DNA of 47,577 nucleotides, taken from positions 1-47,577 of the forward strand of contig CAMGEM010000003.1 of NCBI GenBank assembly GCA_946055095.1. Reading direction: 5' to 3'. Below, piece by piece: positions 19,533-47,577 of the stretch (positions are counted from its first letter, which is position 1; every line of letters begins with the position of its first letter). Below the pieces are notes generated by a model, which saw only the letters and a list, made by a program, of their open reading frames with translations, was not told the DNA's origin and ran no database searches. The position numbers were made by a program, and so were the translations under genes. This stretch comes from an uncultured Parabacteroides sp. GTDB taxonomy: Bacteria > Bacteroidota > Bacteroidia > Bacteroidales > Tannerellaceae.

Positions 19533-19549
19533 GCGATGGCCGCAAAAAA

Positions 19550-19791
19550 CGTTGCCCGTAGTTTGGGAAAACGTTGCCCATCGTTTTAAAAAACATTGCC
19601 GATCGTTTTAGAAAACGTTGCCCGTGGTTTTGGAAAATCATGGGCAATATTTTTTTGTCCGTTGCCCATCATTTTGGAAGGCATTGCCTGCCGCTTGACC
19701 AAGTCTGCCTGATTCGCCCCAAATAGTGTTCCTGTTAGTCCCCACTTTTTCCCCAGTTAGCGAAAAATATTTCTCCAGTTGGAGCCGAGAT
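19550..19791. repeat. Tandem array of 22-bp degenerate units
   Basis: Units at 19550, 19572, 19594, 19616, 19638 (inverted), 19660, 19682, 19704, 19726, 19748, 19770; consensus CGTTGCCCATCGTTTTGGAAAA changing to TTTCCCCAGTTAGCGAAAAATA, in constant 22-bp phase. Confidence 0.8.
19618..19656 (+). terminator. Intrinsic terminator of the S46 peptidase gene formed by array units 4 and 5
   Basis: TTGCCCGTG/CATGGGCAA (9 bp including one G-U), 12-nt loop, followed by TATTTTTTT. Confidence 0.7.
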
Positions 19792-46455: not shown

Positions 46456-46463
46456 TACTTTTG
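46456..46463 (+). promoter_or_regulatory. Bacteroidetes -7 element (TACTTTTG) for the capsule operon
   Basis: TAnnTTTG with T-rich -33 region (TTTA 46431-46434, 21-nt spacer). Confidence 0.5.
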
Positions 46464-46664: not shown

Positions 46665-47207
46665 ATGGAAGATTGCTGGTATGTGTTGCGCGATTTGGCA
46701 CGTCCTAACGCCAAGAAACCCGCTTACAAGCAACTGCAAGCGATGACTGAACTGAATGGCTGCGTGTTCGTGCCGCTCAAGCAGCAGGTTTTCAGGGCTT
46801 TCGGTAGGTGTGTGGTGCGCTTCGTCCCCTATATGCGCGACCTCATCTTCGTGCATAAGTCTAAGGAAGAGCTCGACCCTATCGTTCGTCGGATGCCACT
46901 GTTGCAGTACCGCTATGTGCGTGGTGGCAAGCGGGATGAGGCAATGAGTGTGCGCCACAAGGACTTTGAAGTCTTTCGGCGTGCCGTCGAGCAGACCGAC
47001 AATGTGGAGTATTTCAGTTATGAGGAGGTCTCTCCCCGGCTTTATGGCAAACAGATCCGCATCATCGGTGGTTGTCTCAACGGCTTTGAAGGCCGTCTGA
47101 TGAGCAAACGCGGCAGTAAATACAAACGCTTGCTCATCGACCTTCAGGAGTGCAATCTCTCCGCAGCCATTCAAGTGGAATCTGAGTTTATTCAGTTGTT
47201 GAAGTGA
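46665..47207 (+). CDS. upxY: UpxY-family NusG-like transcription antiterminator of a capsular polysaccharide locus
   Basis: WYVLRDLARPNAKK NGN-domain start, C-terminal KOW-like IRIIGGCLNGFEGRLMSKRGSKYKRLLIDL. Confidence 0.9.
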   Translation: MEDCWYVLRDLARPNAKKPAYKQLQAMTELNGCVFVPLKQQVFRAFGRCVVRFVPYMRDLIFVHKSKEELDPIVRRMPLLQYRYVRGGKRDEAMSVRHKDFEVFRRAVEQTDNVEYFSYEEVSPRLYGKQIRIIGGCLNGFEGRLMSKRGSKYKRLLIDLQECNLSAAIQVESEFIQLLK

Positions 47208-47226: not shown

Positions 47227-47243
47227 GCGTTAACAGTTAACGC
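47227..47243. repeat. Perfect palindrome GCGTTAAC-A-GTTAACGC downstream of upxY
   Basis: 8-bp arms around a single central base. Confidence 0.7.
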
Positions 47244-47251
47244 TTGCTGAT

Positions 47252-47361
47252 GCTTGACCCCGAAAAAATGAAAGCGCTTTCAAGTGCTCACGCAAGCGCT
47301 TTCGATGGCCTATGATAGCGCTTTCATCGGGCTATGAAGGCGGCTTCGTTGAAAAACCTAT
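47252..47361. repeat. Second tandem array of 22-bp units
   Basis: GCGCTTTC at 47274, 47296 and 47318 (exact), GCGGCTTC at 47340, degenerate GCTTGACC at 47252; spacing exactly 22 bp. Confidence 0.75.
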
Positions 47362-47402: not shown

Positions 47403-47577
47403 ATGCTAAACAGAAATTCGAGAATATACGTCGCAGGCCATCGAGGGCTTGTAGGCTCCGCCATCTGGAACAACCTGATGCGGAGAGGTTACACCAATCT
47501 GGTCGGTCGAACCCATAAGGAGCTCGACCTTACCGACCCGTATGCCGTGAAGCGGTTCTTCGACGAGGAGAGACCCG
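47403..47577 (+). CDS. fcl: GDP-L-fucose synthase, 3'-truncated by window edge
   Basis: Translation MLNRNSRIYVAGHRGLVGSAIWNNLMRRGYTNLVGRTHKELDLTDPYAVKRFFDEERP; GxxGxxG SDR motif; absent from the ORF track because it runs off the window. Confidence 0.88.
   Translation, partial: MLNRNSRIYVAGHRGLVGSAIWNNLMRRGYTNLVGRTHKELDLTDPYAVKRFFDEERP

Follow-up and report, generated by a model that had tools for sequence, protein, structure and literature searches.

A 22-bp-phased dyad array behind upxY in a Parabacteroides genome and intergenic arrays of the same period in the Tannerellaceae

Organization of the upxY–fcl locus

The window, that is, the whole stretch of 47,577 nucleotides analyzed here, is the entire contig C3 in the assembly of an uncultured Parabacteroides sp. 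(G000; 2.47 Mb, 256 contigs, 84% complete). Toward its end lies upxY (46665–47207, + strand), which encodes a UpxY-family transcription antiterminator of 180 amino acids (NCBIfam NF033644, E-value 2e-29, above cut-off). The −7 promoter consensus of Bacteroidetes is TAnnTTTG, and a match to this pattern, TACTTTTG (46456–46463, + strand), is the likely candidate promoter of the upxY transcript. Directly behind the upxY stop, the sequence contains an inverted repeat, GCGTTAACAGTTAACGC (47227–47243, no strand assigned), which is predicted to fold into an RNA hairpin and lies outside the 22-bp phase described below. The next gene is fcl (47403–47577, + strand), encoding a GDP-L-fucose synthase (Pfam Epimerase; fragment match to NCBIfam GDPFucSynFcl), of which only the start is present. 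Truncation of fcl by the contig end at 47577 leaves the remainder of any capsule operon out of view.

A spacer of 195 nt separates the upxY stop (47207) from the fcl start (47403) and harbors the array, which lies 61 nt behind the upxY stop. On the + strand, GCGCTTTC starts at positions 47274, 47296, and 47318, all 22 bp apart, and a degenerate fourth copy, GCGGCTTC, follows at 47340 with the same 22-bp step. Each copy of GCGCTTTC forms the core of a dyad, and the array is preferably described as four dyads with centers 22 bp apart, none of which has a strand. The phased-dyad scan described below yielded dyad 1 (TGAAAGCGCTTTCA, 47269–47282), a perfect palindrome, dyad 2 (CGCAAGCGCTTTCG, 47291–47304), dyad 3 (TGATAGCGCTTTCA, 47313–47326), and the degenerate dyad 4 (TGAAGGCGGCTTCG, 47335–47348). 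The array is thus small, with four units, one of them degenerate.

The recurrence had already been noticed in a sequence-only reading of the window and was confirmed. An identical 8-mer occurring three times at equal spacing was found in none of 100 dinucleotide shuffles of the window, and the self-identity of the region 47266–47350 was 65% at offset 22 and 63% at offset 44, with at most 38% at the remaining offsets from 5 to 43. The call by TRF covers only 47295–47337 of the array. In the phased-dyad scan, in which four equally spaced 14-bp dyads were scored at every window position and at spacings from 12 to 40, the array ranked first with 24 of 28 pairs (runner-up in the window, 19), and the maximum in 300 first-order Markov randomizations was 22. 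Across 811 kb of the 2.47-Mb genome (spacings 14–40), it was the only phased-dyad set with at least 22 of 28 pairs. The array is therefore real and lies between upxY and fcl, where it had been placed before. Two details of the earlier description did not hold: the stretch 47252–47273, listed as the first part of the array, is not a repeat unit, and the array is located in the spacer 3' of upxY rather than in the leader before this gene.

Intergenic arrays with a 22-bp period in related genomes

Tandem arrays were surveyed with TRF (score of at least 50, period of at least 10), and the intergenic ones were selected by a crude ORF call. In the genome to which the window belongs, of which the survey covered 811 kb of 2.47 Mb, 11 of the 24 intergenic arrays had a period of 22, three a period of 23, and two a period of 44. 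The preference was similar in a second Parabacteroides genome (G016; period 22 in seven and 23 in three of 18 arrays) and complete in a genome of a sister genus of the same family (G068; 22 in all eight arrays). The periods in G037 were spread over 21–24 and 41–46, and those at other Bacteroidales loci were 21 (10 arrays), 22 (11 arrays), and 23 (five arrays) among 54. No intergenic tandem arrays were detected in 320 kb from other classes of the phylum or in 100 kb of E. coli. In G037 (loci L159–L178), many arrays with periods of 41–43 were present in coding as well as intergenic DNA, alongside those of 21–24 bp.

In the four genomes of the family, the units exceeded their shuffled versions in dyad symmetry (Fisher P 0.001, 0.001, 0.03, and 8e-6; combined approximately 1e-9). 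For the units of the other Bacteroidales, no dyad excess over shuffles was found (P 0.66). The phased-dyad counts of G068 were excluded, because four or five matches appeared at every spacing, probably due to runs of N. In a third genus of the family (G055, 2.4-Mb genome), one hairpin word, GCAGYCGCYCGGCTGC, followed by a 6-bp spacer of varying letters, accounts for 98 adjacent pairs with a distance of exactly 22 bp in about 30 loci (control, 0); examples are C124:377–634, C11:254–473, and L035:1455–1570. The expectation that two arrays with the same period and different words indicate a wider class was borne out, as the period of 22 is preferred in the own genome, G016, and G068, and a single 22-bp word recurs in G055. 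Searches of the open-access literature returned no account of such repeats in Bacteroides, Parabacteroides, Bacteroidales, or P. gingivalis except BrickBuilt, which is weak evidence of novelty, and the 22-bp-phased arrays of Parabacteroides are apparently an undescribed class. The interest of the window array rests on this class and its strict phase and not on the upxY–fcl locus.

The window word itself, GAAAGYGCTTTC, was found again at 22-bp spacing on two contigs of the own genome, C27 (18332–18365, at the contig end; L144) and C110 (91–168). As both may stem from a single array that was broken apart, the genome has just one or two additional arrays with this word. Weaker matches at 22 bp were present in G012, G013, G016, and G037, compared with one match for the reversed control, and a three-copy match with up to three mismatches was absent from 60 other genomes of the phylum. 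The recurrence on C27 is located near a gene 5' end. Both C27 and C110 carry their arrays at or near contig ends, and arrays of this kind may break the assembly.

Strictness of the phase and genomic location

A second array of the window (19546–19669, + strand) has another word and consists of five TTGCC[CG][AG]T units at multiples of 22 bp, about 20 bp downstream of a gene on the + strand. In the sequence-only reading, both arrays were connected by CATCG at unit positions 8–12. This motif occurs in only one of the four units of the upxY–fcl array, and a shared run of five was obtained in 33% of shuffled unit pairs; the common register is attributed to chance and was rejected as a link between the arrays.

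The TTGCC[CG][AG]T word was present at nine sampled loci of the own genome. Its copies are spaced by 22 bp (28 times), 44 bp (21 times), or 66 bp (12 times), and not a single spacing deviated by one base. Thirty neighboring copies differed by 193 substitutions in 660 positions. At an assumed indel-to-substitution ratio of 0.03, the probability of observing no phase shift among them is 0.003, and it is lower at higher ratios. Among 39 Parabacteroides species, the TTGCC word was found in three. Two of these three, G007 and G024, contained 75 and 72 adjacent pairs of the TTGCCC word per genome, respectively. Several of their arrays correspond in every unit and differ by one or two substitutions (e.g., G007:C11:460483–460566 and G024:C58:826–909, or G007:C3:43328 and G024:C32:19831) and look orthologous as judged from the sequence. 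The positions fixed in the TTGCCC word were left out as evidence for conservation, because the search pattern imposed them. Copy-number variation, which had been proposed for the upxY–fcl array, is not supported; the evidence comes from this other word, whose arrays in G007 and G024 look conserved unit for unit.

The location of the class was tested with 49 arrays (period 20–24 or 43–46) from four genomes, using crude gene calls and an expectation derived from intergenic length. Intervals between convergent genes contained 19 arrays vs. 7.4 expected (P 5e-5), intervals between divergent genes six vs. 11.5 (P 0.04), and tandem intervals 24 vs. approximately 30. Convergent genes flank seven of the nine TTGCC arrays. 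The arrays of the class are thus found mostly at gene 3' ends, above all in convergent intervals.

Arrays at other upxY loci

The untranslated region on which UpxY acts is the leader before upxY. The window array resembles the UpxY-dependent capsule leaders of Bacteroides in that it adjoins upxY and precedes a sugar-nucleotide gene; it differs from them in its position after upxY and in that nearly every other upxY locus lacks it. The untranslated region is where UpxY keeps premature termination from occurring (PMC9409006). About 95 upxY loci were examined, comprising those of UpxY relatives within the genus and 80 from named genomes, and a comparable dyad array directly behind upxY was detected at one other locus only (G037:C2, L005:2111–2300). 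There, an eight-unit array, each unit being TTACCAGACTATGGTAA with 5 bp added, runs with a 22-bp period between upxY and feoA/feoB, which are not capsule genes. The arms are constant, the spacer is variable, and the word differs from that of the window. Behind upxY of a Prevotella assembly (L118), a 22-bp array of a different, non-palindromic kind was present, and two more loci had short 21-bp repeats. The scan for 22-bp units behind other upxY genes, which the sequence-only reading had suggested, was therefore positive for G037 and L118, but nearly all other loci were without a comparable array, including that of the nearest upxY relative in the genus (P. distasonis An863, 80% identity). In a rough comparison, the number of arrays behind upxY corresponds to the general frequency of such arrays.

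Since the only other comparable array among the approximately 95 upxY loci has another word and precedes feoAB, the capsule-specific role put forward earlier is not supported. For the window array, a chromosome-wide feature is a likelier reading than a switch of the capsule. For work on capsules, this means that further proof is needed before the array behind upxY is taken for such a switch.

Comparison with known repeat systems

REP elements and BIMEs are small dyad-symmetric intergenic repeats with species-specific words, which are clustered and dispersed (PMC2817692, PMC3733652) and occur preferentially downstream of genes, in convergent and unidirectional arrangements (PMC3733652). The class described here shares with them the high copy number, the extragenic location, and palindromes in the range of 20–40 bp, and it likewise favors convergent and downstream positions (19 vs. 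7.4 arrays in convergent and 6 vs. 11.5 in divergent intervals). It differs in the head-to-tail arrangement with one exact period of 22 bp. The REP palindrome carries a GTAG or CGTC tag at one end (PMC3733652); neither tag occurs in the window array (47269–47348). The cognate RAYT, a Y1 transposase (PF01797), was not found in G000 (84% complete), G037, G016, and G055, and a single match was obtained in G068. RAYT as the driver of the arrays was rejected, given its absence from four of the five family genomes searched. Binding of gyrase, IHF, or Pol I is a further REP feature, and gyrase and IHF are bound by REP/BIME in enterobacteria (PMC2817692). It is the GTAG/CGTC tag and RAYT on which REP/BIME membership of the arrays fails.

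By taxonomy and shape, the nearest relative of the class is the BrickBuilt minisatellite of Porphyromonas gingivalis (PMC4596501), which also belongs to the order Bacteroidales and also consists of imperfect intergenic units arranged head-to-tail at many loci per genome, with a length of about two helical turns. Its period is 23, whereas that of the window array is exactly 22. BrickBuilt has one word per species and is flanked by a leader and a tail with inverted ends.

Iterons of plasmids and phages are likewise direct repeats of about 22 bp, corresponding to two helical turns. They mark replication origins beside a rep gene, whereas the 22-bp arrays have differing words; the neighbors of the window array are upxY and fcl and not a replication initiator gene. 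The assignment to an iteron superfamily is not supported, because the arrays are scattered over many sites of the chromosome, beside ordinary genes.

Possible functions of the arrays

We tentatively favor the interpretation that the window array is a REP/BIME-like row of DNA sites in helical phase, placed at the 3' end of a gene, and a small member of the class dispersed through Parabacteroides and sister genera. The arrays of this class are rows of dyad-symmetric sites that keep a spacing of 22 bp, equivalent to about two turns of B-DNA, and the word differs between species and array families. Because the arrays combine dyads, a two-turn spacing, substitutions without phase shift, and a position at gene ends, we infer that they may be bound as double-stranded DNA, on one face of the helix, by a putative dimeric or oligomeric protein, for which a nucleoid protein or a topoisomerase-recruiting factor would be candidates. 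Such an array would mark or insulate the end of a transcription unit, as REP/BIME do in enterobacteria. At the upxY–fcl locus, this would be the 3' end of upxY, and fcl would be touched only secondarily via read-through or supercoiling. Counting against phased sites, the window array has few units, one of them degenerate, its recurrence on C27 is near a gene 5' end, the period of 22 is not universal (21–24 in G037, 21–23 in other Bacteroidales), and the strict phase could instead reflect a low indel rate of the lineage. The more far-reaching proposal that the Tannerellaceae carry undescribed gene-end marks, in which a conserved architectural protein reads 22-bp-locked dyads and drifts in sequence preference between species, with a changing word and a constant phase as the outcome, is speculative and in our view doubtful. 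A functional phase would point to an as yet unknown chromosome-organizing or transcription-boundary protein in abundant gut bacteria, for which the clear sequence signature of the arrays could serve as bait.

The main rival is a neutral origin, which we regard as somewhat unlikely. Hairpin-prone units of about 22 bp would be amplified through replication slippage or template switching and persist only where they are harmless, away from promoters, so that phase and palindromes would have no function. The many unrelated words, the periods of 21–23 without dyads in other Bacteroidales, and the lack of the array at the nearest related upxY locus are consistent with such minisatellites, and the location bias could arise passively if arrays are purged from promoters and coding sequences. 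The absence of any phase shift among copies with 193 substitutions, however, argues against this origin, as do the orthologous-looking arrays of G007 and G024, which retain unit number and order. In addition, local slippage does not explain the occurrence of one word at dozens of loci per genome. Even if neutral, the arrays provide a clear example of a lineage whose minisatellite period is fixed.

An RNA element of the upxY–fcl transcript, whose hairpins would either limit read-through into fcl by attenuation or shield the upxY mRNA at its 3' end, possibly under modulation by UpxY, is improbable. The site between both genes would suit an attenuator, and REP elements are often transcribed (PMC3733652). 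The spacer also folds better than shuffles (z −2.5): in an alternative reading of the same bases (47259–47331, + strand), a long imperfect RNA stem is predicted, in which 47259–47263 and 47269–47278 pair with 47317–47331 and thereby dyad 1 with dyad 3. The opposite strand, however, folds equally well (z about −2.5 on either strand). Wobble pairs would be expected to be more common on the sense strand if mRNA hairpins act; when G·U was scored against A·C mismatches, wobble pairs numbered 29 on the sense and 41 on the antisense strand (P 0.19), and this lack of a sense bias argues against a role at the RNA level only. No covariation between the inner arm columns was detected for the TTGCCC word, and the array has neither a terminator-like site of the intrinsic type on the + strand nor a match in Rfam. 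Moreover, an exact 22-bp phase is unnecessary for an RNA hairpin, and such arrays are present at almost no other upxY locus. Taken together, the results on folding, wobble pairs, covariation, terminators, and Rfam lean toward DNA over RNA.

A row of operators through which a LacI/GalR-type repressor controls fcl is very improbable. A central CG dyad is typical of operators of this family, dyad 1 (TGAAAGCGCTTTCA) has this center and fits the general family pattern AANCGNTT, and the genome encodes two LacI-family proteins; yet, the related copies on C110 are centered on TG, CA, or TA, near matches to the dyad are few elsewhere in the genome, and the other arrays of the class bear unrelated words. 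Equally remote is a remnant of a mobile element, in which a MITE or REP-type element would have carried the array: the words are species-specific and dispersed, and the 23-nt BrickBuilt minisatellite of the same order is carried by a MITE (PMC4596501), but G000, G037, G016, and G055 lack a Y1/RAYT transposase, and the viral contigs contained no exact three-copy match to the window word.

Relatives of the UpxY protein

Relatives of the UpxY protein of the window with 69%–84% identity were found in records labeled Prevotella, Mediterranea, Prevotellamassilia, and Bacteroidales (L059–L076), and most relatives from the same genus are less than 50% identical to it. This distribution suggests that the upxY found in the window was transferred between families.
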